From Flavobacteriaceae bacterium PS02337 (lineage in GTDB: Bacteria; Bacteroidota; Bacteroidia; Flavobacteriales; Flavobacteriaceae): a DNA stretch of 64,000 bases. Both the position numbers and the translations under genes were made by a program. This document shows positions 31,778 to 54,321 of this stretch, piece after piece (position 1 is the stretch's first letter; each line of letters begins with the position of its first letter). The DNA lies in contig JASCOE010000002.1 of NCBI GenBank assembly GCA_029959285.1, positions 496,001-560,000 on the forward strand, given 5' to 3'. Under the pieces are notes generated by a model that made no database searches, had not been told where the DNA came from, and worked only from the letters and a program-made list of their open reading frames with translations.

Positions 31778-32470
31778 TTAAAGCAGCTTCTCAAGAAGGG
31801 CAATAACAAGTATAATTGACGTTTCATTTTTACTAAAGAAAGGCTTGGCATGTTTGCTTCCTACCAGAATATCCCAATCCTTATCCTTACGTTCTTCCTC
31901 TGTGTACAAGGAATACCGTGAAATAGATGCGACAGTTAGAATGGTCTCGGTTTCCTCAGAAGTAAAAATTGTATTACTGAGCACATCAGATTCATAACCA
32001 AGAATGTAATTATTGGAGATCGTAAATTCTTCCTGCCTTTTGCTTATAAGATTCTGAAGGAAATTTATAAGATTGTTTTTAGCATAAGTCTGTAAAGTGC
32101 TATTCTGAACTATAAGAATAATACTGTTGTCTGGATCGGAAAGTATTGCTTCCACCATCTCGTCAGTAAAGGGTATTAATCTATTAGTAATAGACTTTTT
32201 GTTCGGAATATTATTTAAAACAAACCTTATCTGCTCAGTAAGTTCCTCAACAGAATTTGGAGACTGATTCTTTTGATAAAAAACTTTCAATAATTCGTAA
32301 ACTTTCTGCCCTTCTATATCAAAAGGGTTGCCGTCACCCTTAAAAGATTGGCTTTTACTTTCAGAATTCTGTAGTGAACCTGATGTGGGTTCTGAACTTT
32401 CAATATCGGAATCTGCCGAACACGAAATAAATAAAAATGATGCAGTAATACATAATAAAAAAGTTTTCAT
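31778..32470 (-). CDS. Predicted lipoprotein of unknown function
   Basis: From ATG 32470 the protein has 230 residues and starts MKTFLLCITASFLFISCSA, a lipoprotein signal with lipobox FISC. A Ser/Glu-rich tether follows, then an all-helical domain. The longer frame from 32608 lacks a plausible N-terminus. It is divergent from the TPR-AraC regulator at 32788, with a shared intergenic region holding a strong palindrome. It may be a surface sensor or accessory of the SusC/D island; this is inferred from position. Confidence 0.65.
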   Translation of the reverse strand: MKTFLLCITASFLFISCSADSDIESSEPTSGSLQNSESKSQSFKGDGNPFDIEGQKVYELLKVFYQKNQSPNSVEELTEQIRFVLNNIPNKKSITNRLIPFTDEMVEAILSDPDNSIILIVQNSTLQTYAKNNLINFLQNLISKRQEEFTISNNYILGYESDVLSNTIFTSEETETILTVASISRYSLYTEEERKDKDWDILVGSKHAKPFFSKNETSIILVIALLEKLL

Positions 32471-32615
32471 GATTTTGATGTTTGAAATGAATGAGATTAT
32501 TTTCTCAGTCCTTTTCATCCGGATAAGCAGAACTTTTATCCAGCACCCTGCTGGACATTTTGCTTTTGAATTCAAGACAAAACTATTATGCTCATTAGTC
32601 ACCCGCAAACCATTG

Positions 32616-32663
32616 TGTGTGGATTTTCGGCAATTCCACTGTGGATTTCATGGAAATCCACAG
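32616..32663. promoter_or_regulatory. Palindromic operator in the divergent intergenic region
   Basis: The 317-bp gap 32471-32787 has no gene. It holds an exact inverted repeat, CTGTGGATTTC (32639-32649), ATG, GAAATCCACAG (32653-32663), and an extra half-site, GTGTGGATTTTC, starting near 32617. It sits between a lipoprotein gene (-) and a regulator gene (+). Confidence 0.6.
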
Positions 32664-32787
32664 TGCTTTCAACCAAACAAAACACTGTATTTCAATTGTT
32701 TATGTTACTTTTATATTAATCTAATGTAAAATTAATATTACAGCATTGAGTTGGCCAATTATCAATGCCGCACAAATCCCTAATTAT

Positions 32788-34479
32788 ATGAATAAATCAA
32801 ATCTAGTTATTGCCTGCCTGCTGCTGTTTAATCTTTTGTCAGCTCAAAAAAACTCATTCACCATCCCAGATTCTCTAAAGAAAAAAAGCTATGAATACTT
32901 AGATACTAAATTCTATGCTTTGAAGAAAGACAGTGCACATGCAGCCATATATGCCTACAGCTTTCTTAAGAAGGCCAGACTGGAAAAAAACTCGAAAGAA
33001 ATTATGAATGGATACCAGAATTTGATGCTGATATCCCCCAATAAAATCAAACCCACCTACATAGACAGTATTTTATACACAGCTAAAAAATCAAATGACA
33101 ATGCATTAATTGGAGCTGCATATCTCACTAAAGGCACCTATTACTATGGTTTGAAACATCAGAAACTTGCAATGGATTATTATTTAACCGCAAATAGTTA
33201 TGTTTCAAAGACAAATGATCAATATCAGATACATAAAGTAAAATACTGTATTGCCCTAACAAAGTTTTATGTAGGATTTTATGATGAAGCTGTTTCTCTT
33301 TTGAGAGAATGCATAGATTACTATAAAAATGTTGAGGCAAGACCTTATCTTAATTCTATTCACATGCTGGGGCTTTGTTACAATAAACTTGGCAATTATG
33401 GATTATGCACGCAGATGAATACTTTAGGAATATCGGAAAGCAAGAGATTAAAATCGACTGTAATGATTCCCTATTTTGTTCATTCTGAAGGCATCAATGA
33501 TTACTTTAAAGGAAACTACGCAGAATCGATTAAAAATATAGATTCGTCCCTTGACCCTATTATTGAAAACGAAGATTTTGCAAATGTCGCAATTGGAAAC
33601 TTTTATTTAGGAAAAAGTTACTGGTCACTTAACAAAAAAGAAAAAGCATCGAAGCATTTTCAAATCGTTGATAGTATTTTTAAAGAGAACAAATATCTGA
33701 GACCGGATTTAAGACAGGCATTCGAACTTTTGATTAACTATTATAAAACCAAAAAAGATTTAGATAATCAATTATACTACATCAATGAACTTTTAAAAGC
33801 TGATACTCTTCTTGTAGAGAACAGTACCTATATAGTTAGCAAAATTCACAAACAGTATGATACAAAAGAACTAATTCAAGAAAAAGAAAAGATATTGATA
33901 GAAAAAAATGAAATTGAAGAAGATCTAAAAAAGGAACAGTATTATGATATAATATTTGCATGTGTTATCTTTTTGCTTTTCATCTTTATAATCTGGCAGA
34001 CCCGGCGTTATTACAAAAGAAGAAAAATGTATGAAAAAAACTTTGAGCTTAGAATGCAGGAACTTAACGCAGTTAAAAATAAACCCAAAATCAAGATTGA
34101 AAAGGAACCGATAAAAGATATAAATACTGAAACAGTTGCAGCTATACTAAAACAGCTTGAAAGATTTGAAATCGAAAAAAAATTTTTAGAAAAAGATTGG
34201 AATCTTGTTACGCTAGCCGCAACATTTAAATCAAACACTAAGTATTTAGCCGCTATTCTAAGTTATTATAGGGATATGGGAATGAGTGAATATATAAACG
34301 GTCTTCGGATCGAATACATCATCAACTTATTACAGACGGAACCAATATATAGAAAATACACCAATGAAGCATTAGCTCAAGAAGCAGGCTTCAGCTCAAC
34401 CCAACGGTTTGCAAACGCTTTTTTGGCAAAAGCAGGAATGCCGGTAAGCTTTTTTATTCAGAGAATAAATAAGTCGTAG
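32788..34479 (+). CDS. TPR - membrane helix - AraC HTH regulator
   Basis: A one-protein signal transducer of 563 residues. The start at ATG 32788 gives a signal peptide (MNKSNLVIACLLLFNLLSAQ). Residues 20-385 are a tetratricopeptide array (for example AYLTKGTYYYGLKHQKLAMDY) expected in the periplasm. One membrane helix follows at about 390-408 (IIFACVIFLLFIFIIW), then a coiled linker and a C-terminal AraC-type HTH (ALAQEAGFSSTQRFANAFLAKAG). The topology suggests sensing of an exported signal and direct DNA binding. The SusC/D-peptidase genes downstream are likely targets. Confidence 0.85.
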   Translation: MNKSNLVIACLLLFNLLSAQKNSFTIPDSLKKKSYEYLDTKFYALKKDSAHAAIYAYSFLKKARLEKNSKEIMNGYQNLMLISPNKIKPTYIDSILYTAKKSNDNALIGAAYLTKGTYYYGLKHQKLAMDYYLTANSYVSKTNDQYQIHKVKYCIALTKFYVGFYDEAVSLLRECIDYYKNVEARPYLNSIHMLGLCYNKLGNYGLCTQMNTLGISESKRLKSTVMIPYFVHSEGINDYFKGNYAESIKNIDSSLDPIIENEDFANVAIGNFYLGKSYWSLNKKEKASKHFQIVDSIFKENKYLRPDLRQAFELLINYYKTKKDLDNQLYYINELLKADTLLVENSTYIVSKIHKQYDTKELIQEKEKILIEKNEIEEDLKKEQYYDIIFACVIFLLFIFIIWQTRRYYKRRKMYEKNFELRMQELNAVKNKPKIKIEKEPIKDINTETVAAILKQLERFEIEKKFLEKDWNLVTLAATFKSNTKYLAAILSYYRDMGMSEYINGLRIEYIINLLQTEPIYRKYTNEALAQEAGFSSTQRFANAFLAKAGMPVSFFIQRINKS

Positions 34480-34501
34480 CCATAATTATTTACTTTTAGA
34501 A

Positions 34502-34531
34502 TTGGTTCTTTTAATTTTAAAATTACATTTG
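34502..34531 (+). promoter_or_regulatory. Promoter of the histone H1-like gene
   Basis: TTG at 34502-34504, a 19-base spacer and TACATTTG at 34524-34531: an exact TTG-N19-TAnnTTTG promoter, 25 bases before the ATG. Confidence 0.75.
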
Positions 34532-34555
34532 TCGCCGTAATTAAAACATGACAAT

Positions 34556-34732
34556 ATGAAAGATCTAATCGTAAAAATTAATGCAGAGATTGAAACATTC
34601 AAAACTGAATCTGAATCTCTTTCAGAAAAAGGAGTTAAAGCTGCTGGAGCAAGAGCTCGTAAATCTTCGTTGGAAATTGAAAAACTTTTAAAGGAGTTTC
34701 GAAAAGTTTCTATTGAAGAATCTAAAAAATAA
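34556..34732 (+). CDS. Histone H1-like small protein (Hc1 type)
   Basis: A 58-residue highly charged protein whose sequence follows the Bacteroidetes Hc1/H1-like family: MKDLIVKINAEIETFKTE at the start, then KAAGARARKSSLEIEKLLKE, ending ESKK. Such proteins bind DNA non-specifically. It has its own consensus promoter and its own terminator (34748-34781), so it is independently expressed. Chromosomal copies are common in Flavobacteriia; this one is element-borne. Confidence 0.82.
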   Translation: MKDLIVKINAEIETFKTESESLSEKGVKAAGARARKSSLEIEKLLKEFRKVSIEESKK

Positions 34733-34747
34733 TTCGACTTTAATTAG

Positions 34748-34781
34748 AAAGCCCTTCAAATAAATCTGAAGGGCTTTTTTT
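34748..34781 (+). terminator. Terminator of the histone H1-like gene
   Basis: A 10-bp perfect stem (AAAGCCCTTC 34748-34757, GAAGGGCTTT 34768-34777) followed by a T run. Confidence 0.88.
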
Positions 34782-34838
34782 ATAGTTATTCTATCAAATC
34801 AATAGTTTCCAAACAAAAAATAGTTAAAAAAATAATAT

Positions 34839-35072
34839 TCACAGACCTTTATCTGGCCAAAAATCTTTTGGGGAACAATTAAAAATTTTTGCAATGTCAT
34901 TTAAATGCTGAACATTATATTTTGCTTTTTTTGAAGATTCAATATCTCCAATAAACCCCACACCCTTATCCAATCTTAGAGATAATTGCTCTTGAGTAAA
35001 GCCCTTTTCCTTGCGGATGGTTCTTACCCTATCAATTATATAATTTTCTATTTCGGATAATTTGTCATTCAT
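34839..35072 (-). CDS. XRE-family regulator (controller-protein-like)
   Basis: A 77-residue single HTH_3 domain protein: RTIRKEKGFTQEQLSLRLDK, then GFIGDIESSKKAKYNVQHLN, and IAKIFNCSPKDFW. Size and layout resemble the controller (C) proteins of restriction-modification systems. ATG 35072 is chosen over an upstream TTG. The palindrome ATGGACTATAGTCCAT lies 38-53 bases upstream, so auto-regulation is likely. It is divergent from the RNA element and SusC gene. Confidence 0.82.
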   Translation of the reverse strand: MNDKLSEIENYIIDRVRTIRKEKGFTQEQLSLRLDKGVGFIGDIESSKKAKYNVQHLNDIAKIFNCSPKDFWPDKGL

Positions 35073-35109
35073 AATATACAAATAGCCAACATTATTTGTT
35101 AAATTTCAA

Positions 35110-35125
35110 TGGACTATAGTCCATA
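35110..35125. promoter_or_regulatory. C-box-like palindrome ATGGACTATAGTCCAT
   Basis: A perfect 16-bp palindrome located between the XRE gene (-) and the RNA/SusC unit (+). The core GACTATAGTC matches the type of site bound by restriction-modification controller proteins. Confidence 0.65.
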
Positions 35126-35136
35126 TTTGTTATTTT

Positions 35137-35168
35137 TTGTTATATTTGTATTCTATTACATATATTTG
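35137..35168 (+). promoter_or_regulatory. Promoter of the structured RNA / SusC unit
   Basis: TTG at 35137-35139, 21 bases, TATATTTG at 35161-35168. Transcription would begin near 35174, directly before the folded region. A second TATATTTG at 35141-35148 lacks a well-placed TTG. Confidence 0.55.
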
Positions 35169-35173
35169 CGATT

Positions 35174-35345
35174 CTTCAGAAAAATATTTGAAGCACTCGC
35201 TTTGAATCTCGCGTTAGGAAACTGGTAATTTTTGCAACGAGATGATAAGTAAGATGCTCACGTCCTTTGACGTGGGCTCACTTATTGTTGCAACGGTATA
35301 CCAGTACCTCTAACGCAGTAAGATGAGTTCCACGTCATTTTTTTC
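35174..35345 (+). ncRNA. Strongly folded RNA-like element upstream of SusC (unidentified family)
   Basis: Nested exact complementary arms form one long hairpin: GCGTTAG 35211-35217 with 35310-35316, ACTGGTA 35221-35227 with 35299-35305, TTGCAAC 35232-35238 with 35287-35293, ATAAGT 35245-35250 with 35280-35285, and CACGTC 35259-35264 with GACGTG 35269-35274 around a CTTT loop. A small 5' hairpin (CTTCA/TGAAG, 35174-35193) precedes it. A second CACGTC (35331-35336) followed by a T run can compete for GACGTG. It could be a cis-regulatory leader or a free RNA. It matches no riboswitch class I recognise. The rest of the 476-bp gap (35346-35548) has no gene. Confidence 0.6.
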
Positions 35346-35548
35346 TCTTCCTACTGTATTCTTAGCAAAATCTTCATTTTTTTATCGCATTTGTCCTGTC
35401 TAATCTTGAAATAATAATGCCTGTGAATTAAAAAAACTATTACTTGCTTTACTTCAAAGCACAAAAAATGGCCCTCAACGGCAGCGACCAAACTAGCGTA
35501 GAGGACCTTAGCTAATCAAAATCAATTTAACTAACCAAGTCCAATATT

Positions 35549-38500
35549 ATGAATAATTTTTCATTTTACAAGGATGGAAGAGTGCTTTATTGCCTAATTT
35601 TTACGGCATTTCTGTTCACTTTTTCGTCATCGTTTGCCATTAACTCCTCTCGGCATATTAGTATTATTTTCCAACAGAATCAGATAAAAGGAACAGTCAC
35701 AGATGGCTCTGTTCCTCTGCCCGGAGTAACCATTGGCGTAAAAGGCAGTGGTAATAACTATGCTATCACCGACTATAGCGGGCAGTATGTAATTAATGTT
35801 GCAACAAAAGACACTTTGATTGTTTCCTTTATTGGATTTAAAACTAAGTACGTCCCAATAAACGGAAGTACAAAAGTTGACATTACACTCCAATACGATA
35901 CAACAACATTACAGGAGGTCCGGGTAAATGCTGGTTATTATTCTGTAAAGGAAAGTGACCGTACGGGGAGTATTGCCCGGATTACCTCCAAAGATATAGA
36001 AACCCAACCTGTAACAAATGTTTTAGCAGCCATGCAGGGGCGTATGGCAGGTGTAAACATTACACAGAATACAGGTGTGGCAGGAGGCGGATTTGATATA
36101 CAAATTAGAGGAAGAAACAGCATAAGAACCGATGGGAATGCTCCTTTGTATATTATTGACGGGGTTCCGTATTCCTCAGAGACTATCGGAAATAATAGAA
36201 GCACCGTAGTTCTGCCAGCGGCCTTCGATCCTTTAAATTCGATAAATCCTTCTGATATTGAAAGTATCGAGGTTTTAAAAGATGCCGATGCAACTTCTAT
36301 TTACGGTTCAAGAGGTGCTAATGGTGTGGTACTTATTACAACAAAAAAAGGCAAGGAAGGCATTACTCGTTTTGTGATGGATTTCCGGCAAGGAGTTGGA
36401 ATGGTCACCAGATTTATGAACCTTATGCATACAGAGCAGTATTTAGAGATGCGTAGTGAAGCTTTCAGAAATGACGGAATTTCTTTTGGACCATCGGACT
36501 ACGACGTAAACGGGACATGGAACCAGAACAGGTATACAGACTGGCAGAAAGAATTTATTGGTGGCATGTCCACTTATACTGATTTGCAGGGCACAGTATC
36601 TGGAGGATCAGCACAAACACAGTTCCTTTCAAGTGCCTCACTTCATAGGGAGACAACAGTTTTTCCAGGAGATTTTGGATACAATAAAGCAAACTTTCGA
36701 ATTGCCGTTAACCATGAGTCGGAAAATGGTAAATTCAAAATAAATACGACCGCAGGCTACACTGCGCAGAAAAACAACCAGCCCTCGATTGACCTTACAC
36801 GATATGTAACAGTTCTGGCACCTAATGCGCCCTCCCTTTATGATGAAAGTGGAAATCTAAACTGGGAGAACAGCACGTGGGAAAATCCGCTCGCAGCCTT
36901 GGAAGGAAAATACCATACGACAACTAATGATCTCACTGCAAGCACTATGCTGTCTTATGCAATTTTTCCGCAGTTGACATTAAAGACCAGTCTGGGATTT
37001 TCCAGTACCAATCATTATGAGACGCGCACACAGCCCTCTACGATGTTTGATCCCGTATATCAGTTAGGAAGTGAATACTCTGCTATAACAGCAAATTCAT
37101 CCCAAAGGCAGTCGTGGATCATTGAACCACAGATTGAGTGGAATCAAACATATGGAAAAATCAAAACACAGGCGCTCTTTGGAAGTACTTTTCAAAAACT
37201 TACCGGTGGCCAATTGCTTCAGGAAGCAACTGGTTACACTAGCAATGCTCTGATTTATAACCTGGCCGCTGCAAAAGTACTAAATGCTGTTTTCGACACG
37301 GAATCAATTTATAAATATCAGGCTCTTTTTGGCCGTTTAAACTTTGTTTTCGATGACAGGTATATCATCAACCTTACCGGCAGAAGAGACGGGTCGAGCC
37401 GTTTTGGTCCTGGAAATCAATTCGCTAATTTCGGCGCGGTGGGCGCGGCATGGATTTTTATAGGAGAAAAAGACAACAATTTAAGTTTTATTAATTTCGG
37501 AAAAATAAGAGCTAGTTATGGAACAACGGGAAGTGACCAGATTGGCGATTACCAGTTTATTGATACCTACACTTCAACTGGAATAAAATACGGCAGTGTA
37601 ATAGGGGTTTTGCCAACTAGACTGTTCAATCCAAATTTTAAATGGGAAATCAACAATAAGCTCGAAGCTGCACTTGAAACTGGCCTTTTTAAAGACAGAA
37701 TCTTCTTAACTGCTGCATGGTACTTAAATAGATCATCAAGCCAGCTTGTCGGTTTACCTCTGGCTGCGACGACAGGCTTTGCTTCTATTCAATCGAACCT
37801 AAATGCGACTGTCCAAAATACTGGCTTTGAAATGACTTTACGAACTGTAAACTTTCAAAAAATGGATTTCAGCTGGATAACCAATTTCAACATTTCACTT
37901 GCTAAAAATAAACTGCTGTCCTTTCCACAGCTTAAAGGATCGACTTACGAAAACAAATTTATTATTGGACAACCACTGAATATTGTAAAAACATACCATT
38001 ATATAGGAATAGATCCCCTGAGCGGAAATTATCAGTTTGAAGATGTCAATAAGGACGGTATGATTACCTCACCAGAAGACAAAGTTTACATTTCAGATCT
38101 TAATCCAAAATTTTTCGGAGGACTGCAGAACCAGATTACCTGGAAAAACTGGAGACTGGATTTTCTTCTTCAATTTACCAAGCAGAAAAATTACAGCGAA
38201 GAATATACGCTAGGAATGCCCGGAACTATGAGCAATCAGACAGACCGGATCAAAAACAGATGGCAAAACGTAGGTGATGTTTCGGAATTACAAAAATACA
38301 GTACAGGTGCAGACGGAAAAACACTCGACGCGGCTTCAAAATATTTTAGCAGTGATGCGGTAATAACCGATGCTTCATATGTTCGCTTGAAAAATGTGGC
38401 ATTGTCATTTGTTGTTCCAAAAGAATGGATTAAAAATGTCCAGTGTCGCTTATCATTTGAAGGTCAGAACCTGCTGACCTTTACTCCATACAAAGGAATG

Positions 38501-38575
38501 GATCCCGAATTTAAATTTACAGGATACCTTCCTCCACTATCAGTTTTTACAACAGGTCTAACTCTTACATTTTAA
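35549..38575 (+). CDS. SusC/RagA-family TonB-linked outer-membrane transporter
   Basis: A 1008-residue TonB-dependent channel. After a signal peptide (about 1-31) come a carboxypeptidase-regulatory-like domain (KGTVTDGSVPLPGVTIGVKG, about 49-120), the plug domain with ALYIIDGVP-type and VLKDADATSIYGSRGANGV motifs (about 200-265), and a long beta-barrel ending in TTGLTLTF, a normal C-terminal strand. It is paired with the SusD-like gene 12 bp downstream. The adjacent peptidase and cysteine peptide suggest a peptide ligand rather than glycans; no glycoside hydrolase is nearby. Confidence 0.95.
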   Translation: MNNFSFYKDGRVLYCLIFTAFLFTFSSSFAINSSRHISIIFQQNQIKGTVTDGSVPLPGVTIGVKGSGNNYAITDYSGQYVINVATKDTLIVSFIGFKTKYVPINGSTKVDITLQYDTTTLQEVRVNAGYYSVKESDRTGSIARITSKDIETQPVTNVLAAMQGRMAGVNITQNTGVAGGGFDIQIRGRNSIRTDGNAPLYIIDGVPYSSETIGNNRSTVVLPAAFDPLNSINPSDIESIEVLKDADATSIYGSRGANGVVLITTKKGKEGITRFVMDFRQGVGMVTRFMNLMHTEQYLEMRSEAFRNDGISFGPSDYDVNGTWNQNRYTDWQKEFIGGMSTYTDLQGTVSGGSAQTQFLSSASLHRETTVFPGDFGYNKANFRIAVNHESENGKFKINTTAGYTAQKNNQPSIDLTRYVTVLAPNAPSLYDESGNLNWENSTWENPLAALEGKYHTTTNDLTASTMLSYAIFPQLTLKTSLGFSSTNHYETRTQPSTMFDPVYQLGSEYSAITANSSQRQSWIIEPQIEWNQTYGKIKTQALFGSTFQKLTGGQLLQEATGYTSNALIYNLAAAKVLNAVFDTESIYKYQALFGRLNFVFDDRYIINLTGRRDGSSRFGPGNQFANFGAVGAAWIFIGEKDNNLSFINFGKIRASYGTTGSDQIGDYQFIDTYTSTGIKYGSVIGVLPTRLFNPNFKWEINNKLEAALETGLFKDRIFLTAAWYLNRSSSQLVGLPLAATTGFASIQSNLNATVQNTGFEMTLRTVNFQKMDFSWITNFNISLAKNKLLSFPQLKGSTYENKFIIGQPLNIVKTYHYIGIDPLSGNYQFEDVNKDGMITSPEDKVYISDLNPKFFGGLQNQITWKNWRLDFLLQFTKQKNYSEEYTLGMPGTMSNQTDRIKNRWQNVGDVSELQKYSTGADGKTLDAASKYFSSDAVITDASYVRLKNVALSFVVPKEWIKNVQCRLSFEGQNLLTFTPYKGMDPEFKFTGYLPPLSVFTTGLTLTF

Positions 38576-38587
38576 ATTTTTAACATC

Positions 38588-39997
38588 ATGAAAGTAAACC
38601 CATATAAAATTGGAGAAAATATTTTTTCTATAAAGATTTCAATCTTTTTTTTGCTCCTTCTTTTAAATGCCGGATGTGATTCTTTTGTAGAGGTCGGCCA
38701 GCCATCTGGACAGCTAACCAAAGAGACTGTTTTTCAAGACAGGGCAACAGCAGAAGCAGCAGTAACTGCTGTGTACTCTTCGATACGTGATACTGGTATC
38801 TTATCAGGAAGTAACTTATCAATAACAACAAAAATGGGCGCATATGCAGATGAGCTGAATTTCTATGGAACAAGTTCAAACACGACATTGAATTTTTACA
38901 ACAATACATTACTTCCTACAAATCCACAAGTAAATAATTGGTGGAAGACTGCCTATAATCAGATATATGCCGTAAATTCTATAATTGAGGGTATTTCCAA
39001 GTCCAAAGTATTATCACAATCAGAAAAAGATCAATTTATGGGAGAATCCTTATTTATCAGGTCTTTAATCCATTTCTATCTCATGAACTTATATGGTGAT
39101 GTCCCATATATAGCAAGCACTGATTATATATCCAACAATAAAGCCCTCAAACAACCTGCCGATTTTTTATACTCCAAAATAATAGAGGATCTGCTTCTGT
39201 CCTATTCCCTACTTCAGGAAAAATATTTAACAAACGACCGCACCCGCCCTAATAAAGCTGTTGCTATGGCGCTTCTGTCCAGGGTATATCTCTATTCGAA
39301 ACATTGGGCAGAGGCATCTAATGCAGCTTCTTATATCATAAACAAAAGTGATGTTTATAAGTGGGAAAGCGATTTGAATAAAATATTTCTCAAAGCAAGC
39401 AGTACAACTATCTGGCAGTATAAACCTGCACTTGAAGGGCAGAATACCGCAGAAGGTGGCGCTATGATCTTGCTGGCTGGTCCTCCCTCCGATGTTGCAT
39501 TGAATCCTGCATTTGTCGATTCATTTGAAACAGGCGACTTGAGAAAACAAAAATGGATAGCCTCCGTTTCCAAAGGCACTCTTAGCTGGTATTTTGCCTA
39601 TAAATATAAGACCAAGCTTATGACCGCCACATCAGTTGAATATTCAATCCAATTCAGACTTGCTGAACAGTACCTGATCCGTGCAGAAGCAAGAGCCTAT
39701 CAGGGAGATTTAATCGGTGCAAAGGAAGATCTTAATAAAATAAGACTTACTGCTGGATTGAATGATACAAATGCACTTTCACAGCAGGAAATAATCAATG
39801 CTGTAAAAAAGGAACGTCGCTTTGAGCTCTTTACTGAATCCGGCCACCGCTTTTTTGACTTAAAAAGGAATGGCGACTTAGATGCAGTATTAACAGGTGT
39901 TAAATTTGGGTGGAATTCAACGGACAGCCTGCTACCCATTCCTGAATCTGAGCTGATCTTAAATCAAAATTTGCTGCCTCAAAACCCAGGTTATTAA
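38588..39997 (+). CDS. SusD/RagB-family outer-membrane lipoprotein
   Basis: The substrate-capturing lid of the SusC-type channel. The signal sequence ends in a lipobox (LLLLNAGCDSF, Cys about 30). The SusD helical pattern is clear: GESLFIRSLIHFYLMNLYGDVPYI, the TPR-like VAMALLSRVYLYSKHWAEASN, and the C-terminal RLAEQYLIRAEARAYQGD and RFELFTESGHRFFDLKR boxes. It has 469 residues. The peptidase gene starts 5 bp after its stop, so the three genes form an operon. Confidence 0.95.
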   Translation: MKVNPYKIGENIFSIKISIFFLLLLLNAGCDSFVEVGQPSGQLTKETVFQDRATAEAAVTAVYSSIRDTGILSGSNLSITTKMGAYADELNFYGTSSNTTLNFYNNTLLPTNPQVNNWWKTAYNQIYAVNSIIEGISKSKVLSQSEKDQFMGESLFIRSLIHFYLMNLYGDVPYIASTDYISNNKALKQPADFLYSKIIEDLLLSYSLLQEKYLTNDRTRPNKAVAMALLSRVYLYSKHWAEASNAASYIINKSDVYKWESDLNKIFLKASSTTIWQYKPALEGQNTAEGGAMILLAGPPSDVALNPAFVDSFETGDLRKQKWIASVSKGTLSWYFAYKYKTKLMTATSVEYSIQFRLAEQYLIRAEARAYQGDLIGAKEDLNKIRLTAGLNDTNALSQQEIINAVKKERRFELFTESGHRFFDLKRNGDLDAVLTGVKFGWNSTDSLLPIPESELILNQNLLPQNPGY

Positions 39998-40002
39998 ATA
40001 GT

Positions 40003-42651
40003 ATGAAAAATTATTCTAGAAATGCATGGTCATTATTTACAAAAGTAATGATCTTGACAATTGTATATTTTTTATCCTGTACTGTAAGATCCCAGTCCAT
40101 ATCAGCTAAGAGAAATGCATCGCCTTTAGATTATAAACTCTGGAGCAAAGCAACTTCTAAGGGGCTTTCCGAGATGGGCCTTTGGTACCTCTATAATGTA
40201 TCGTATGAAAATGGATCTGATACGCTTATCGTTAAGAACCTTCAAAGGCCTATTTCATACATTTGTCCTAAAAGCCAAAAAAGCAGTTTTCTTCATGAAA
40301 AATGGTTCTGCAGCTTAAACAATGTCGATGAGTTATCAATTATAGATTTGGTTTCGGGCAAAAAAGAAGTAATTAATAATGCTTTAAATTTTGAAATTAC
40401 AACAGATAACAAACTGCTAATTGTAGTTTTAAAAACGGAAAGCAACAATAAAACTCTCCTTATCAGGTCATTTGAAAAACCAATATCATATAAAATTCAA
40501 AATGTCTTGGCATATGCCTATAATGCTATAGGGAATAAACTGATTTATAGTAGTATTTCTGCAGGAATTTGCCGTGTTTTTATTTTAAATACAGACAAGC
40601 ACACTACTGACTTGGTCAGTGAAAGTTCTGATGAAAAATTGTACAATTTTATCTGGCAGCAAAGTGGCGGATCAGTAACCTATCTTTCTAAAAAAAGTCA
40701 CCAAGCGGACAATTTATCCCAAAATCAAAAAATTGTCTGTTACAAGCTGAATACAAAAAAGCTCTACACATTCCAGCCTGAACAAGCTACTGGATCAAAT
40801 TTATCTTCTACTTCTGCGCCGGCAATTTCTGAATTAGTACTATCACAAGATGGCCAGAGTGTTTTTTTTAAAATGAAAAATCAGAAAAAAGATATTGCTC
40901 TTAATCAAAAAAGTATCGTTCAGGTATGGAATGCTGCAGACAAAAATTTGCCTCCCACTGGCAATAGTAAAAAGGATAACTATCACCCGAAAATTGTGAT
41001 GTGGAATCCTGAAAAACAGCTTTTCAAAATTCTGACTGATAGTCTATATTCTGAAATAATGCTAAATTATGGACAGAAATTTGCTATCTTATGGAATCCT
41101 GCCGTTGATGAACCTCAGTCAAATTTTTATGCTTTAAGAGACTATAAAAGCGTTGAATTGGCGACTGGACAGGAAGTCGTTTTTCTAAAGGACTACAGTT
41201 ATGGTGTTGACAAGATTTCATTATCTCCTGCAGGAAAATATGTAACTTATTTTAAGAAGGGGGATTGGTGGCTGTACAATATTGAACTAGACACTCATAG
41301 CAATCTTACAGAAAATTTGCAATACTCTTTCGCCAACGAAGAGAATGACTTCGTAGGAGAAATACCTGCCTACGGCCATGCGGGATGGACTGCTAATGAT
41401 AAGTCAATCTTACTGTACGATAAATTTGACCTCTGGGAAATTTCACCGTATGATTTCAAGACTAAAAGAATAACGTATGGACGTGAGATAAATACGCAAT
41501 ACAGAATAATTCACTCTTTGGAAAAAAAGAGGCAGATAGCTAATTTTGATGGTGTAACATCTTTGATTATTGATAAGGACAAGGACATATTGGTGCAGTC
41601 AAAAAGTAAAACTGAGAACGGTTTATATAGACTTACACAAAAAAATAAATTAATATCGGTTGTCAGCAGCAAAAATAAAATTTCAGCACCAATAGTATCT
41701 CAAGATGGGAGCACTATTGTTTACAGCGAGGAAAATTTTGACTTGCCGCCAAGGATAATACGAAAGCAAAAAAATCATGATGAATTATCACTGATTTATG
41801 AGAGTAATCCCCATACCAAACATTTTAATCAAGGCCGCTCTGAAGTAATCAATTATCGCAACTCAAAGGGAAAGGTTCTCCAGGCTGCTATTTTTTTTCC
41901 GTCAGACTACACATCTTCTAAGAATTATCCAATGATAGTGAATATATATAGCCGTCAATCTGAAAAAGCAATTGAATATGTTAACCCCTCCTTATACAGC
42001 AGTAGCGGTTTTAACATAAGCAATTACACAAATAATGGCTATTTCGTTCTTCTTCCCGACATCATATATGAATCGGGAAATCCTGGAAAATCTGCGGTAG
42101 ATTGTGTACTTTCAGGGACAAAAAAGGCTTTAGAATCTTTTCCTATAGATCCTAAAGCTATTGGACTAATTGGACATTCCTTCGGAGGTTATGAATCAGA
42201 TTTTATTATCACCCAGACTGATATGTTTTCAGCTGCGGTGGCAGGTGCCGCGATCACCGATATGGTTAGTAGTTACTTACACTTCTCAGAGAATTATTTC
42301 CGCCCTAATTTCTTTCAATATGAATCCTCACAGCTCCGTATGGGAGAATCTATTTTTAAAAATTTTCAAGGTTACCTTTCTAACTCGCCTGTTTATTATG
42401 CTGATAAAGTGAATACCCCTTTACTTTCCTGGGCAGGAGTAGAAGATGTCCAAGTACACCACTACCAGACCATAGAGTTTTACCTCTCTTTGAGAAGACT
42501 TGGCAAGAAGCATGTCATGCTCCTTTATCCTGAGCAAGGTCATACTCTTACAAACAAAGACCAGCAATTAGATCTGAGTACGCGGATTATGGAATGGTTT
42601 GATAAATATTTAAAAAAGAACTCTTCAACAGTGCAATATAATTATAATTAA
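40003..42651 (+). CDS. Exported S9 family (prolyl oligopeptidase-like) peptidase
   Basis: An 882-residue serine peptidase with an N-terminal signal peptide (about 1-31), a beta-propeller-like region (about 60-600) and an alpha/beta-hydrolase domain. Catalytic residues read as Ser near 726 in GLIGHSFGGYE, Asp near 816 in WAGVEDVQ and His near 847 in PEQGHTL. S9 enzymes cleave short peptides. It is in one operon with SusC/D, so it probably trims peptides before or after TonB-dependent uptake. The propeller is divergent from characterised DPP-type members. Confidence 0.9.
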   Translation: MKNYSRNAWSLFTKVMILTIVYFLSCTVRSQSISAKRNASPLDYKLWSKATSKGLSEMGLWYLYNVSYENGSDTLIVKNLQRPISYICPKSQKSSFLHEKWFCSLNNVDELSIIDLVSGKKEVINNALNFEITTDNKLLIVVLKTESNNKTLLIRSFEKPISYKIQNVLAYAYNAIGNKLIYSSISAGICRVFILNTDKHTTDLVSESSDEKLYNFIWQQSGGSVTYLSKKSHQADNLSQNQKIVCYKLNTKKLYTFQPEQATGSNLSSTSAPAISELVLSQDGQSVFFKMKNQKKDIALNQKSIVQVWNAADKNLPPTGNSKKDNYHPKIVMWNPEKQLFKILTDSLYSEIMLNYGQKFAILWNPAVDEPQSNFYALRDYKSVELATGQEVVFLKDYSYGVDKISLSPAGKYVTYFKKGDWWLYNIELDTHSNLTENLQYSFANEENDFVGEIPAYGHAGWTANDKSILLYDKFDLWEISPYDFKTKRITYGREINTQYRIIHSLEKKRQIANFDGVTSLIIDKDKDILVQSKSKTENGLYRLTQKNKLISVVSSKNKISAPIVSQDGSTIVYSEENFDLPPRIIRKQKNHDELSLIYESNPHTKHFNQGRSEVINYRNSKGKVLQAAIFFPSDYTSSKNYPMIVNIYSRQSEKAIEYVNPSLYSSSGFNISNYTNNGYFVLLPDIIYESGNPGKSAVDCVLSGTKKALESFPIDPKAIGLIGHSFGGYESDFIITQTDMFSAAVAGAAITDMVSSYLHFSENYFRPNFFQYESSQLRMGESIFKNFQGYLSNSPVYYADKVNTPLLSWAGVEDVQVHHYQTIEFYLSLRRLGKKHVMLLYPEQGHTLTNKDQQLDLSTRIMEWFDKYLKKNSSTVQYNYN

Positions 42652-42662
42652 TTTTAAAGAAT

Positions 42663-42688
42663 AAATGCAGTTCCTAGGAACTGCATTT
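42663..42688. terminator. Bidirectional terminator between convergent operons
   Basis: A perfect 26-bp palindrome (half-site AAATGCAGTTCCT) between the peptidase gene (+) and the small peptide gene (-). Confidence 0.85.
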
Positions 42689-42695
42689 ACAATTA

Positions 42696-42980
42696 TTATT
42701 CTGGTCGATAAACTTCAACGGCACAAGATCCGTTTGCATTTTTTGCCCAAAGTTGTTGCGACGATGGATTATTATAATCAACACGACAAATTGGGCCATT
42801 GTCTGTTGAACATGTGAATTTTTCCTCGTCACAGAGTCCTGCAGGATTTAGTCGCTTAAATGCATCTACATCTATAACGGCTTTTCTGCTTTTCTCCATT
42901 GCACTAGTTGTAAATGCACCCGCAATAGCAAGGGCAAATACCATAACAGGCACAGCCTGTTTTAAATTAATTGATTTCAT
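42696..42980 (-). CDS. Small exported four-cysteine peptide (DUF6520-like)
   Basis: A 94-residue protein. The hydrophobic leader MKSINLKQAVPVMVFALAIA has a possible cleavage after TTSA (residue 27). The mature part of about 67 residues has four cysteines (50, 57, 65, 86) in GLCDEEKFTCS, GPICRVDY and GSCAVEV, enough for two disulfides. It resembles the Bacteroidetes DUF6520 family of unknown function (recalled, not searched). It lies 75 bp downstream of the MauE-like gene on the same strand. Candidate exported signal, toxin or cargo of the SusC/D island. Confidence 0.75.
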   Translation of the reverse strand: MKSINLKQAVPVMVFALAIAGAFTTSAMEKSRKAVIDVDAFKRLNPAGLCDEEKFTCSTDNGPICRVDYNNPSSQQLWAKNANGSCAVEVYRPE

Positions 42981-43055
42981 AATAATAGTTTATATAGTTA
43001 ACGATCTACTCTTTTACAGGTTTTCGATCTTCCCCTGACTCTGCGCAGTTTACAA

Positions 43056-44582
43056 TTAGTTAATTATTTTATATTGGTTTGTAATTATTTTTCCAAGTCT
43101 GTAGGCTGTAAGATTCTTACCGATGAGGGCATAGAGAATACCTTCTCTAACATAAAAACTGTTCAGTTTTTCATCGTTTATATTATAGACATAAAAGCTT
43201 GAGACATAAGATCTATCCCTGATATTATAGACATCAATAATTGCTGCCTGATTCCACATTTTCCGATCCTCATACCTTCCGATAATATTAGAATTTATAA
43301 ACAATAAGTTCTGACATATAGCTCCGCCTTTATTGACAACCTGAGGCGGAGCTGCCAATTTCTTGACTCCACGGCTTTTGATGTAAGCAACCTTAATTTT
43401 AGCTGGGCTGGCTGTATCGATCGTATGGCTACGGTAAATCAGATTTAATCTACTATCGGATACAACATATTCGTTCCGGTACGTATAAACATATACATGC
43501 CTATTGCTGTAATAATCATAATATAATTTTCCGTCAACGTCAAACATCCCATCAACTTGCTTCTGTAAAAGATCAGAATGAATACTCACTCGCGAAGGAT
43601 TCCCAAAAAACAAGTCTCCCAACTCACTCTGGTCAGTACTTTGATCAATCGTCCTAAATGAGATCCTAAGAGAGTCAATGACTTGTGGCTGCGTGAATCT
43701 CAGCCTTTCTCTCCCAACTAATTTTGCTTTCCAGTCAAGGGTATTTCCTTTGAAAACCGAAGATATATTTCCATCAATAAGATAAAACCCAGAGTTATTA
43801 ATCCTCAACTGCACACTTTTTGAAATTGCAGTATCATTCACTTTTATTGTATGATACTTAGCACTTACAAGAGCTGTGTCCAATTCTGTGGCTATAAGAG
43901 GCGCACTGCGGTTTCCTAAATAGATCTTATTATTAGCCGAACCTGCAAAATAAAAGGAGTTATAAAGTAGGTCTTTTTCATAGATCTTTTCCGTTCCTCC
44001 TGCAAACCTTCTTATAAAAGAATTATCAAATTTAATTGCATTTTCAGAATTTGTAAAAAGCAAAAACATGATTCCCGTAGCCAGAAAAAATGAAGTTATC
44101 AATAATATAGGCCTGTATTTTTTTTCAAAATAAAAAACATTTTTAGTAGCATTTGATTGTTTTTTTACCGGCGAAATTAATATAGCTAATAAACCAATTA
44201 TTATAAAGAATATATTAAATACAAAATGCTCCCTCCAATTCATTTTTTCTAAAATTCCACCACAGGTACAGGGTACGTATGGACTATAATGTAATATTAT
44301 ATAGATATACATGCTGAACATGACCATAAGAACAAAAGAGCAGTATAATCCAATAATTCGGTATTTTGGGAAAACAAGCATTAAGAAAACCAAAAGTTCA
44401 AATATTATTACTCCCCACGATACAAATCCAGCGTATGCACTAAGTAAAGGAGACTGCGCAAGCTGTATTTGAAAGTTCTCAAAATCTAATACCTTTGATA
44501 TTGCCGCATAAACAAACAGCAAGACAAAAAGCATGCAGATTACTTCAACGATGATATTTTTTGTTTGAAATTTTATGTTCAT
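43056..44582 (-). CDS. MauE/DoxX-like redox membrane protein with large exported C-terminal domain
   Basis: A 508-residue protein starting at ATG 44582. The first 160 residues are a four-helix MauE/DoxX-type membrane domain with the cysteine motif PCTCGGILEKMNW near residue 103 on the outer face, as in proteins that help form disulfides in exported partners. A fifth helix lies at about 178-197. The remaining about 310 residues are beta-rich, possibly a propeller, facing the periplasm. It precedes the four-cysteine peptide gene, which could be its oxidation substrate. The fused C-terminal domain is not part of canonical MauE. Confidence 0.75.
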   Translation of the reverse strand: MNIKFQTKNIIVEVICMLFVLLFVYAAISKVLDFENFQIQLAQSPLLSAYAGFVSWGVIIFELLVFLMLVFPKYRIIGLYCSFVLMVMFSMYIYIILHYSPYVPCTCGGILEKMNWREHFVFNIFFIIIGLLAILISPVKKQSNATKNVFYFEKKYRPILLITSFFLATGIMFLLFTNSENAIKFDNSFIRRFAGGTEKIYEKDLLYNSFYFAGSANNKIYLGNRSAPLIATELDTALVSAKYHTIKVNDTAISKSVQLRINNSGFYLIDGNISSVFKGNTLDWKAKLVGRERLRFTQPQVIDSLRISFRTIDQSTDQSELGDLFFGNPSRVSIHSDLLQKQVDGMFDVDGKLYYDYYSNRHVYVYTYRNEYVVSDSRLNLIYRSHTIDTASPAKIKVAYIKSRGVKKLAAPPQVVNKGGAICQNLLFINSNIIGRYEDRKMWNQAAIIDVYNIRDRSYVSSFYVYNINDEKLNSFYVREGILYALIGKNLTAYRLGKIITNQYKIIN

Positions 44583-44636
44583 CTTTAAAATTGTTAGTAA
44601 TTGACATTGCATTAAATTTGGCTTAATAAACATAAG

Positions 44637-44705
44637 CAAATGTAAAGCTGTAAAATGAAAGAAAACACATCAAAAACACGCCAAAAAACATCAAAAACAC
44701 GCCAA
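44637..44705 (-). promoter_or_regulatory. MauE-operon promoter with tandem 18-bp activator-like repeats
   Basis: On the minus strand, TACATTTG (44644-44637) matches the -7 box. Directly upstream are two exact copies of an 18-bp word (plus-strand ACATCAAAAACACGCCAA, 44667-44684 and 44688-44705), spaced 21 bp start to start, two helical turns apart. Confidence 0.65.
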
Positions 44706-45365: not shown

Positions 45366-45761
45366 ATGATGAAAGAAGAGAAAAAAAACAGAACCAGATG
45401 GCTCCATCTTAGGCTGAGTGAAGATGAATATAAGCTGATTCAGAAATATTTCGATGAATCAGTCTGTCCAAAACTGAGTGATTTTGCCCGCAGTAATCTG
45501 CTGAAAAAACCCTTGGTTCTAAAGTACCGAAATACTTCTCTTGATGAATTAATGGCTGAATTAATAAATCTGAGAAAAGAGCTGAATTCAATCGGAAACA
45601 ACTTTAATCAGGCGGTAAAAAAACTGCACACATTATCTCAAATATCTGAGCTCAAAGTGTGGATCCTTGGTTTTGAAACCGATAAAAGAATACTGTTCAA
45701 TTCTATGGAAGAAATTAAAATTACCATTAGAAATCTTGCCGAAAAATGGTTGCAGTCATAA
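45366..45761 (+). CDS. Relaxosome accessory protein (MobC family)
   Basis: A 131-residue DNA-binding relaxosome protein. The N-terminal part RWLHLRLSEDEYKLIQKYF fits a ribbon-helix-helix, and the MobC box LMAELINLRKELNSIGNNFNQAVKKL follows at about 63-88. It probably bends oriT DNA for the relaxase. The relaxase gene starts 16 bases before its stop. In CTnDOT-type nomenclature this is the MobA position. Confidence 0.85.
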   Translation: MMKEEKKNRTRWLHLRLSEDEYKLIQKYFDESVCPKLSDFARSNLLKKPLVLKYRNTSLDELMAELINLRKELNSIGNNFNQAVKKLHTLSQISELKVWILGFETDKRILFNSMEEIKITIRNLAEKWLQS

Positions 45762-47005
45762 ACACCGGATCCTCAGTCAGAAGCATCTTTAATTACAATG
45801 AAAATAAAGTCGAGGCAGATAAAGCAGAGCTTATTGGAGAAGGAAATTATCCTCTTGACGCTTCTGAATTATCTAAAGAGCATCGATTAAAACTGCTTTT
45901 AAAACAGCTCGAATTAAATACAAATGTAAAGCGCGGAAGCGTGCATATTTCTCTCAATTTTGATTCTTCTGAAAACTATCTTTCAAAGGATAAGCTTATG
46001 GAAATTGCCGATGCTTATATGCAGGGAATTGGGTTCGGCTCACAGCCTTATCTGGTCTATCAGCATCATGATGCGGGACATCCGCACATCCACATTGTAA
46101 CTGTAAAAGTAAAGCCCGACGGAAAACGGATTGACATGCAGAACATAGGCAGAAACCAGTCCGAAACAGTCCGCAAAGAAATTGAAAAGACATTTAAATT
46201 AGTCCGGGCTGAGGGTAGCAAAAAAGAAAACATGCTCAATATAAAAGCTGTAAAAAACAGTGTTATCGAGTATGGAACACGCGAAACAAAAAAGGCAATA
46301 GCTAATGTGTTGAGCGCAGTGGTTCCTAATTATAAATATACTACCATAGGAGAATTAAACGCCGTTCTGAACTTGTATAATGTCACGGCGATTCAGGGCG
46401 GAAAAGATTCAAGAATGTTTCTACATAAAGGTCTGGCTTATCAGGTCCTCAATGATAAAAAACAGCCCATCGGCGTACCGATAAAGGCCAGCAGTTTTTA
46501 TCTAAAGCCCACCCTAAAAAATCTTGAAACAAAATTTATTGCAAACAAAACGGCTAGGAATCCTTATTTAAAAAGAATTAAAAATGCAGTTGATATGGCA
46601 TTTATTCAGAACAAAATAAAGGCAGTTTCTGACCTTGAGAGAATTCTCATCCGGGACGGGATTAAGGCTGTACAGAGAAAAAATGAACAGGGACTTATTT
46701 ACGGTGTAACCTATGTGGACCATAAAACAAAATGCGTTTTTAATGGGAGCACTATTGGAAAATTATACTCAGCATCGGGTTTAGAAGAACGCTGCGGAAT
46801 AAAAAGATCAAGCAGCAGAACAGCAGTCGCAAATATTGAAAATAATCAGCTTAAAGATAAAGTACAGCATTCATCTTTTATCAACACAAGCGAACTGCAG
46901 AAGGTATTTGAATCACTGCTGCAGCCTGAATCAGCTGCTGAATACATTTCAAAGGAATTCAAAAGAAAAAAGAAAAGAAAAAGCAGAGGACAGAGTGATT
47001 ATTAA
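45746..47005 (+). CDS. Relaxase/mobilisation nuclease (MOBP-type)
   Basis: The nicking enzyme of conjugative transfer, 419 residues. The metal-binding histidine triad is HHDAGHPHIHIV at 107-118. The N-terminal INTGSSVRSIFNY contains Tyr17, a candidate for the nucleophile that stays bound to the nicked strand. The C-terminal third is Lys/Arg-rich. It overlaps mobC by 16 bases and precedes the coupling protein gene by 16 bp. The candidate oriT is about 450 bp upstream. Confidence 0.93.
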   Translation: MVAVINTGSSVRSIFNYNENKVEADKAELIGEGNYPLDASELSKEHRLKLLLKQLELNTNVKRGSVHISLNFDSSENYLSKDKLMEIADAYMQGIGFGSQPYLVYQHHDAGHPHIHIVTVKVKPDGKRIDMQNIGRNQSETVRKEIEKTFKLVRAEGSKKENMLNIKAVKNSVIEYGTRETKKAIANVLSAVVPNYKYTTIGELNAVLNLYNVTAIQGGKDSRMFLHKGLAYQVLNDKKQPIGVPIKASSFYLKPTLKNLETKFIANKTARNPYLKRIKNAVDMAFIQNKIKAVSDLERILIRDGIKAVQRKNEQGLIYGVTYVDHKTKCVFNGSTIGKLYSASGLEERCGIKRSSSRTAVANIENNQLKDKVQHSSFINTSELQKVFESLLQPESAAEYISKEFKRKKKRKSRGQSDY

Positions 47006-47021
47006 TTAAAAAACTAAGACA

Positions 47022-53116: not shown

Positions 53117-53139
53117 ACAAGTATAAAATGATCAAGATT

Positions 53140-54321
53140 ATGAGCCGGGCAATTGTACATATTGACATGAACACGTTTTTCGTATCCTGCGAAAGGCTGG
53201 AAAATTCAAAGCTAAACGGCATACCGCTTATCATCGGTGGCGGTGACAGAGGTGTTGTGGCTTCCTGTTCCTATGAAGCCAGAAAATTTGGTGTGCGTTC
53301 CGCCATGCCGATCCATATGGCCATGAAACTCTGCCCTCAGGCAAAAATAATGAAAGGCGACATGGAACTCTATTCCAGACTCTCCCATGACATTACCGAA
53401 ATCATTCAGGAAAAAGCACCCGTGGTGGAAAAAGCGAGCATTGATGAATTTTATCTGGACATCACTGGAATGGATAAATTTTATGGCAGCTACAAATGGA
53501 CTGATGAGCTGGCACAGCGCATTACAAAAGAAACGGGGCTTCCCCTGACCTTTGCCCTTTCGGTCAACAAAACCGTTTCGAAAATCGGAACCGGTGAAGG
53601 CAAGCAGAAGCAGAACCTTGAAATCCCCGAACATCTGGTACAGTCATTTTTGAATCCGCTATCCATACGAAAAATCCCGATGGTCGGACAGAAAACCTTT
53701 GAGCTTCTTTCCCGAATCGGCATCCGCACCATCCAGACGCTCTCTGAAATGCCGGCGGAATCACTCCAGCAGATGATAGGCAAAAACGGCACTGAGCTCT
53801 GGAAAAAAGCCAACGGAATAGACAACACCCCTGTAGAGCCCTATACGGAAAGAAAATCAATTTCAACCGAACATACCTTCTCTCAGGACACCATTGATGT
53901 ATTGAAACTAAACCGGATCCTGCAGGGCATGGTGGAGAAGCTGGCCTATCAGCTGCGCGCTGAAGAATGGCTCACCTCGACGGTGACCGTTAAAATAAGG
54001 TATGCCAATTTTGATACCGAAACCAAGCAGTCCAGAGTCCAGTATACTTCAGCGGATCATATTCTTACCCAGACCGTGACGGATCTCTTTACCAAGCTCT
54101 ACCAGCGCCGAATGAGACTGCGCCTGATCGGAGTGCGCTTTAGCGGCCTTGTCAGGGGAACTTATCAGATTGACCTGTTCAATGACACCGAGGAAATGCT
54201 TGCCCTTTATCAGGCCATGGACAGAATGAAGACCCGTTACGGATTTGATGCCGTGATGAGATGCGCCGGCGCATCTTTCAAACCAAATAACAAAGACGAA
54301 ATTTTAAAACGCAGAAAATAG
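53140..54321 (+). CDS. dinB: Y-family DNA polymerase IV (DinB)
   Basis: A 393-residue translesion polymerase. The catalytic carboxylates are intact: Asp9 in HIDMNTFFVSCERL and Asp102-Glu103 in KASIDEFYLD. It is therefore an active DinB and not an ImuB-like pseudo-polymerase. The HhH/thumb segment PMVGQKTFELLSRIGI and the little-finger domain follow. I prefer ATG 53140 (MSRAIVHIDM) to 53128, which would lie only about 7 bases past the expected transcription start. It is coupled to the DnaE-type gene 3 bp downstream. Confidence 0.93.
   Translation: MSRAIVHIDMNTFFVSCERLENSKLNGIPLIIGGGDRGVVASCSYEARKFGVRSAMPIHMAMKLCPQAKIMKGDMELYSRLSHDITEIIQEKAPVVEKASIDEFYLDITGMDKFYGSYKWTDELAQRITKETGLPLTFALSVNKTVSKIGTGEGKQKQNLEIPEHLVQSFLNPLSIRKIPMVGQKTFELLSRIGIRTIQTLSEMPAESLQQMIGKNGTELWKKANGIDNTPVEPYTERKSISTEHTFSQDTIDVLKLNRILQGMVEKLAYQLRAEEWLTSTVTVKIRYANFDTETKQSRVQYTSADHILTQTVTDLFTKLYQRRMRLRLIGVRFSGLVRGTYQIDLFNDTEEMLALYQAMDRMKTRYGFDAVMRCAGASFKPNNKDEILKRRK

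Follow-up and report, generated by a model that had tools for sequence, protein, structure and literature searches.

A DUF6520 mini-protein, a MauE-propeller protein, SusCD and an S9 peptidase form a recurrent unit behind a structured RNA leader in Flavobacteriales

We analysed a stretch of 64,000 nucleotides, referred to here as the window (G000:C22:496001-560000), from the 5.7-Mb Flavobacterium-like genome of Flavobacteriaceae bacterium PS02337. Between its tra and mob modules lies a cassette in which susC, susD and the gene for an S9 peptidase, on the forward strand, are convergent with the genes for a four-cysteine DUF6520 peptide and for a protein that joins a MauE domain to a beta-propeller, on the reverse strand. 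The recurrence of these five genes in other genomes supports the conclusion that they form a true unit, and the structured RNA leader ahead of susC makes a strong candidate for an undescribed family of cis-regulatory RNAs. We consider it possible, though somewhat short of probable, that the unit is a mobile, self-contained cassette that exports a disulfide mini-protein and then recaptures it, its fragments or a complex of it. All the genes that an earlier note on this DNA had named for the region exist in the window.

That note had proposed co-occurrence of the genes in other genomes as a check on its reading, and they were found to co-occur. For the comparison with public genomes the 80 best of 253 relatives were taken, almost all of them from Flavobacterium. 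They were fetched by way of two peptide patterns of the MauE-propeller protein, so that the presence of this protein is by construction. A cassette of Flavobacterium johnsoniae strain CI04 (L047) is one of those seen. All five genes (susC, susD, S9, DUF6520 and MauE-propeller) were present in 73 of the 80, and the S9 gene opposes the peptide-MauE pair in 79. The seven loci that fall short have contig ends (L024, L029 and L038), an insertion that shifts the S9 gene 7 kb away (L062) or a truncated S9 gene (L074, and L088 and L098, which are next to tra genes). A DUF6520-type gene adjoins the MauE-propeller gene in 83/83 loci. The same pairing was seen when 196 genomes of the order were sampled separately and DUF6520 was found in 26 genomes (38 matches) and the full-length MauE-propeller in 27 (42 matches): 34 of the 38 DUF6520 matches lie directly downstream of a MauE-propeller gene, and of the four exceptions three are within open reading frames (ORFs) of 351-708 aa. 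Conversely, 34 of the 42 MauE-propellers adjoin a PF20130 match, and of the eight that do not, the three examined (L166, L168 and L169) all have a peptide by a custom hidden Markov model (HMM). A second sample of 20 further loci, 19 of them from another family (f5) and likewise picked by the MauE-propeller, contained the peptide and MauE genes in 20/20 and S9, SusD and SusC in 18 each; within it the peptide match of L171 is weak and interrupted by a stop, and the MauE gene of L183 is split into two ORFs.

The genome that contains the window has four DUF6520-MauE copies; identity to the copy of the window is 43-45% for the other MauE proteins and 30-42% for the other peptides. The copies on C12 and C13 have complete susC-susD-S9 sets. 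On C2 (L019 3582-6353) there is a remnant in which the 3' end of the S9 gene is fused behind another ORF, the DUF6520 and MauE-propeller genes are intact, and an integrase-like gene is adjacent. On C21 (L101 496-3978) the N-terminal part of a cassette-type SusC continues into helicase-like sequence in one ORF, which reads as a chimera or an assembly join. A SusC-SusD-S9 set without DUF6520 is found on C1 (L020), next to genes that were named thioredoxin-like and M16-like from a reading of their sequence.

The DUF6520 gene (42696-42980, minus strand) codes for a precursor with a signal-peptide-like start followed by a beta mini-protein of about 60 residues with four cysteines. It was assigned to Pfam PF20130 with 34.6 bits against a curated cut-off of 25.4. 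The four cysteines are invariant in 57/57 rows of the peptide alignment (A6), where they look structural and where the mature part has no other invariant residue, and 85 of 88 peptides have exactly four cysteines past residue 25. AlphaFold predicted a four-stranded mature part with confidence (block means of 84-90 from residue 41) and a low-confidence signal part, the overall predicted local distance difference test (pLDDT) score being 74.4. A relative of the peptide in the PDB was found neither with Foldseek at E < 1 nor, convincingly, by sequence. Two different DUF6520 peptides in tandem were observed at four loci (4/80; L063, L069, L076 and L079).

The partner gene (43056-44582, minus strand) codes for a MauE domain with a PCxCGG motif, a fifth transmembrane (TM) helix and a beta-propeller. 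The MauE domain (PF07291) scored 110.7 bits against a cut-off of 27 (E 7.9e-32), and the motif is kept in 83/83 MauE-propellers of relatives. The all-beta domain was predicted at a mean pLDDT of 89.7, and its top Foldseek matches are propellers, namely olfactomedin, NHL, WD40 and a Bacteroides DUF4221 protein. Thus the MauE-like oxidase claimed in the earlier note does have a MauE domain, but it is not a bare oxidase, since it carries the fifth helix and the propeller. The claim that the peptide is exported and undergoes disulfide chemistry is compatible with the invariant cysteines beside a PCxCGG protein, and from this motif and the partner's four cysteines it would appear that the MauE domain oxidises the DUF6520 peptide.

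The genes on the other strand code for a SusC/RagA TonB-linked outer-membrane transporter (35549-38575, plus strand; TIGR04056, 681 bits against a cut-off of 368), a SusD/RagB family protein (38588-39997, plus strand; PF14322/PF07980) and a serine peptidase of the S9 (prolyl-oligopeptidase) family (40003-42651, plus strand; PF00326, 3.9e-26). Both the SusC and the SusD models exceeded their cut-offs and the genes are adjacent, as expected of a SusCD transporter. The catalytic residues of the peptidase are S726, D815 and H847, and this Ser-Asp-His triad, which marks an S9 serine peptidase, is retained in 78/78; a crude lipobox scan matched 22 of 79 S9 proteins. Relatives of solved structure, sought by sequence, gave no convincing score. 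In clusters with a lasso-peptide isopeptidase and a TonB receptor, a peptidase of the S9 fold adjoins an outer-membrane transporter as it does here. However, identity with this enzyme was rejected because the best NCBIfam match of our S9 protein, the Atxe2 isopeptidase model NF033523, reached 86 bits where 400 are required, and no lasso cyclase was found among the scanned genes. The absence of glycan enzymes that had been claimed for the region holds for the ten proteins scanned, none of which is a glycan enzyme, and the glycan-uptake reading was rejected on this account.

Upstream of susC the window contains a structured RNA leader (35164..35344, plus strand; model R1) that consists of a 5' hairpin, a pseudoknot, a long arm and an alternative terminator ending in a T-run, and its fold is strong (z = -6.3). 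At its 5' end is a -7 box, TATATTTG (35161..35168, plus strand), that fits the consensus TAnnTTTG as quoted in the available text of PMC7366714. The alignment of this RNA (A4) was selected by two sequence motifs, which gave 64 matches, 62 of them distinct, and 61 rows after the long row L034 was dropped. The box is in 61/61 of these rows, which were preselected by TTTGCGnnnCTTC so that only its TA was free there, and in 13/13 RNA copies that were not selected by motif. The element is about 180 nt long and lies 88-1416 nt, mostly 250-480 nt, from the susC ORF; these distances are approximate because the SusC starts were taken as the first possible codon. An eight-helix pseudoknotted structure pairs 92.8% of the cells over the 61 rows, compared with 84.9% in shuffled and 37-43% in slid controls. 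There are 231 compensatory cells against 71.5 in shuffles, which ignore relatedness, and they fall in 18 of the 46 pairs. In pair types the alignment does not exceed the shuffles, 60/500 of which are as high. Helix 6 pairs just 55.7% of its cells, which we attribute to gaps. In the alternative structure GGCGTGGGCTCACTTA pairs with TAAGNTGAGTTCCACGCC ahead of the T-run and reuses strands of two main helices. These helices pair in 98-99% of the cells with few double changes, so that the terminator rests more on conservation than on covariation. A conserved fold with a mutually exclusive terminator is the structure by which an attenuator or riboswitch is recognised, and by computed energies the first conformer, the antiterminator, is favoured in 48 of the 61 rows. 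In Rfam no family scored above its gathering score for this RNA; the sole match in the window is a tRNA, and at E<=5 there were two matches far below the cut-off.

Closer to susC there is a second hairpin (35470..35507); on the minus strand a T-run comes after it and it is terminator-like. It was counted in 40 of 58 regular-expression matches, obtained from 75 SusC genes, plus the window. Its compensatory cells number 16 against 4.9 in shuffles, its pair types are not above the shuffles (459/500 as high), and in 32 of 39 rows one of the nine pairs does not form. It may thus terminate a DonS-like antisense RNA.

The model R1 was built from A4 and its matches in A4 loci are therefore by construction; some genomes of the relatives' and the 196-genome samples may also be of the same species as A4 rows. 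R1 was found at >=150 bits in 63 of the 80 public loci, and in the relatives' sample 9/9 strong matches, the window included, precede a cassette-type SusC. Of the 20 further loci 13 have the RNA (109-183 bits). The 196 genomes contain R1 in 44 genomes with 119 matches, 65 of them at >=105 bits. Among these 65, 28 are <15 kb from a full-length MauE-propeller (16/17 in the window's family and 12/48 in the rest, all of the 12 in f5), and 28 of the 42 MauE-propellers of this sample have the RNA at >=105 bits. At L033 (19999-20491) the helix-turn-helix (HTH) gene and the RNA form a module that is inverted relative to susC, possibly a natural inversion. Several copies of the RNA are split at one site with the same flanks (CGTGGG / GGGCTC, with a probable GGG duplication), namely at the starts of C12, C13 and C21 and at the ends of C3 and C6 in the window's own genome (L017, L018 and L101-L103). 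The stem pairs when the left half of C3 is put with the right half of C13, and the left half of C6 with the right half of C12. These flanks would mark both ends of a single repeated insert, of which the body was not in view.

Divergent from the leader is a gene for a small XRE/Cro-type regulator (34839-35081, minus strand; HTH_3, PF01381, 34 bits). For 68 of 78 RNA copies the longest divergent ORF of 60 or more aa begins <150 nt away, compared with 815 of 2000 random positions. When 64 divergent ORFs were scanned, 41 matched the Cro/C1-type HTH_26 at E 0.01, with 10 of the 64 rows being a wrong, longer and more distant ORF that was picked by the length rule. The divergent proteins are mostly 9-28% identical to the regulator of the window, with exceptions at 41 and 58%. 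A folded RNA and a C-protein-like regulator had been listed in the earlier note among the upstream features; both are there, but they had been underrated, since they head most copies and the RNA heads other cargo too.

The setting had been described as an integrative and conjugative element (ICE), and the window bears this context out. A tyrosine integrase gene (13256-14488) adjoins a tRNA-Ser gene (12906-12991), genes for TraM and a TraG P-loop protein precede the cassette, and a mobilisation module with mobC-like, MobA relaxase and type IV secretion system (T4SS) coupling protein genes follows it (45366..49010, plus strand), so that integrase, relaxase, coupling protein and conjugation genes occur together. 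A second copy of the tRNA-Ser end, which would mark the ICE ends as an att repeat, was not found within the window. Carriage of the cassette on a plasmid was searched for without a match. In the fetched flanks of the 80 relatives there were relaxase genes at 31 loci, coupling protein genes at 24 and integrase genes at 13, with any mobility gene at 47/80. As a control, the window's own genome has 38 SusD matches and five relaxases, and the only two SusD genes <10 kb from a relaxase are cassette genes (2/3 of the cassette SusDs versus 0/35 of the others).

From the gene content and order, the near-obligate pairing, the motifs and the RNA structure, all of which were observed, we infer the working steps of the cassette as follows. 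The XRE-type protein, by repression, and the RNA leader would set expression. The upstream arm of the RNA, as an antiterminator, and the 3' terminator hairpin would be mutually exclusive, which would make the leader an attenuator of susC-susD-S9. Sec would export the DUF6520 peptide, whose four cysteines would be oxidised by the MauE domain while the propeller holds the peptide. The folded mini-protein would act outside the cell, the cognate SusCD would return it and the S9 peptidase would cut it. A regulator with tetratricopeptide repeats (TPR), one TM helix and an AraC-type HTH domain could, where present, read the product. Import of the DUF6520 peptide by SusCD, its cutting by S9 and a role in signalling or antagonism, which the earlier note had put forward, are suggestions. 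Self-recognition or signalling is favoured over nutrient capture because the peptide and the regulator vary most and several diverged copies occur in one genome. It is rather unlikely that the whole amounts to mobile self-recognition, in which ICEs carry diverged loops, each with a private XRE-type repressor and all under one unreported, pseudoknotted attenuator RNA that Flavobacteriales also place ahead of varied cargo including sigma-Cas12f, and in which the cognate SusCD and S9 read the mini-protein back.

The rates of divergence bear on the recapture loop. In a mirror-tree comparison with 66 of 69 loci, the peptide diverges fastest (mean p-distance 0.70), S9 is next (0.64) and SusC is slowest (0.41). 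The partial correlation of the peptide is 0.16 with SusC, 0.14 with S9 and 0.15 with MauE, and values as high came up in 0, 1 and 0 of 500 permutations. Several observations weigh against the recapture loop and its control as proposed. The partial correlation of the peptide with SusD, which is the usual ligand lid, is -0.05 (399/500 permutations as high). At four loci (C2 of the window's own genome, L074, L088 and L098) the peptide and MauE genes are kept where S9 is truncated and SusCD was not found in the stretch, and therefore the peptide and MauE may act without SusCD-S9. A relative of the TPR-AraC regulator was found in 8/80 Flavobacterium-type stretches and not found in 72. In 13 of the 61 RNA rows the antiterminator conformer, computed with the pseudoknot omitted, is not the more stable one, and in f5 the RNA heads quite different cargo besides cassettes. 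Since the link between the peptide and SusCD is touched solely by the data on correlation and divergence, which are indirect, our confidence in the loop is no more than moderate.

Other functions can be proposed for the same genes. SusCD-S9 might feed on foreign oligopeptides, with DUF6520-MauE as a helper that folds or protects envelope proteins. Peptide import by a SusCD pair has a precedent in RagAB of Porphyromonas gingivalis, which is implicated in the uptake of protein and not glycan in the available text of PMC11817032, and the set on C1 shows that SusC-SusD-S9 can occur without DUF6520. Yet S9 and the peptide diverge fast and in step, which one would not expect if the enzyme served general digestion, and a helper role does not sit well with a DUF6520-type gene beside every MauE-propeller in 83/83 loci, and beside 34/42, plus the three by the custom HMM, in the separate sample. 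We therefore regard scavenging as unlikely. The mini-protein could also be a carrier that binds a scarce ligand (a metal, haem, a vitamin or a quinone) and is re-imported by SusCD, after which S9 would destroy it to free the ligand. A secreted small binder with a TonB-type transporter and a hydrolase is the layout of siderophore systems, where esterases free the ligand, and the several diverged copies in some genomes and a folded beta mini-protein without a PDB relative by sequence or fold would fit. On the other hand, the mature part of A6, in which no residue apart from the four structural-looking cysteines is invariant, has no visible conserved ligand site, and a carrier seems fairly unlikely to us. 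Antagonism, with DUF6520 as a bacteriocin and SusCD either as its receptor or, with S9, as an uptake-and-destroy immunity, we hold to be very unlikely. It would account for a small, secreted, highly variable cysteine protein on an ICE with variable regulators, but neither a dedicated exporter nor a classical immunity gene is among the genes of the unit, and loci with two peptides are just 4/80.

The RNA, too, may be something other than a leader switch, either a stand-alone small RNA (sRNA) or a guide RNA for an extracytoplasmic function (ECF) sigma factor and Cas12f-like pair. The promoter box and the terminator are the RNA's own, and in f5 it precedes ECF sigma and Cas12f1-like genes, at six of 20 loci (L185, L187, L192, L198, L199 and L204). 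These 20 RNA loci were fetched mostly for their lack of a MauE-propeller, and the sigma-Cas12f pair was named by Pfam for L187 and by similarity for the rest; the only Pfam match of the Cas12f1-like gene, at L187, is a remnant TNB match. RNA-guided transcription by a sigma-E-dCas12f system was reportedly described in 2025. It resembles ours in that this RNA type precedes such a pair in f5, and differs in that none was seen beside Flavobacterium cassettes and that no local guide match was found. Against a role apart from the cassette stand the 16 of 17 strong RNA copies of the window's family that are near a full-length MauE-propeller, and against a guide the finding that the longest words common to the RNA and the following 700 nt are 12 nt, the same as in shuffled sequence. 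We consider the sRNA or guide explanation somewhat unlikely. The cargo behind the RNA in f5 further includes a gene for a protein of about 180 aa without an assigned family and, at three loci (L200-L202), a variant unit in which thioredoxin-like, SusC and SusD genes face a two-cysteine peptide and a MauE that lacks the propeller; two of the three loci also have TPR-AraC. Weaker copies of the RNA directly precede a small receiver-like gene (METG..) at L106, L107, L125 and L130, and other weak copies precede secreted-looking proteins. Since the RNA heads other cargo, it would be a general switch and not a sensor of the peptide that is private to the cassette.

The maturation system of methylamine dehydrogenase (MauE/MauD) resembles the cassette in that MauE occurs beside a small cysteine-bearing exported protein and a beta-propeller partner. 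It differs in that the propeller of the cassette is fused to MauE, the peptide has four cysteines only, and no other Mau family was found among the ten scanned proteins. For RagAB we know of no cognate exported cysteine peptide, MauE-propeller or RNA leader of the cassette's kind. Like the DonS-type antisense RNAs of Bacteroides polysaccharide utilization loci, as far as these are described in the available text of PMC7366714, the leader would put a susC operon under the control of an RNA at its 5' end, but the main RNA of the cassette is sense, about 180 nt long and pseudoknotted with its own terminator, and only the proximal hairpin might be antisense. In Flavobacterium psychrophilum 64 structured 5' regions of no assigned function are described (PMC9723704, available text); those named there (pheA, hisG, ftsY, acsA, alaS and rimP) are not at susC and by these names our RNA is set apart, although overlap with the full set is possible. 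Searches of the open PubMed Central (PMC) literature found no paper on DUF6520, on NVEALA or on MauE with SusD and S9 in Bacteroidetes. Among the matches listed there, which do not cover subscription journals or preprints, we found neither a description of the cassette or the RNA leader nor the sigma-E-dCas12f system. SusCD systems are by default read as glycan importers, whereas here a widespread SusCD unit is bound almost without exception to a four-cysteine mini-protein with a signal-peptide-like start and a membrane redox-propeller protein, often near conjugation genes. Should the recapture loop be true, Bacteroidota would have a peptide dialogue by way of SusCD.

The remaining genes upstream of the cassette are less constant. 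The TPR-TM-AraC regulator is encoded at 32788-34479 (plus strand), with PF13424 over its cut-off, PF12833 at 28.2 bits, which is below its cut-off of 33.6, and a TM peak. It had been taken as the regulator of the unit, which the 8/80 Flavobacterium-type loci do not bear out and the second sample, with 18 of 20 loci, does. The lipoprotein-like ORF (31778-32470, minus strand), with a lipobox seen by eye, had been counted with the cassette and drops out of it, as a relative was found beside 1/80 loci (L089). A gene for a histone-H1-like Hc1 protein (34556-34732; PF07432), absent from the earlier note, lies between the two regulators. On the other side of the cassette a pair of genes, for an ImuB-like Y-family polymerase and a DnaE2-like protein, adjoins the mob module (53128-57378 of the window).

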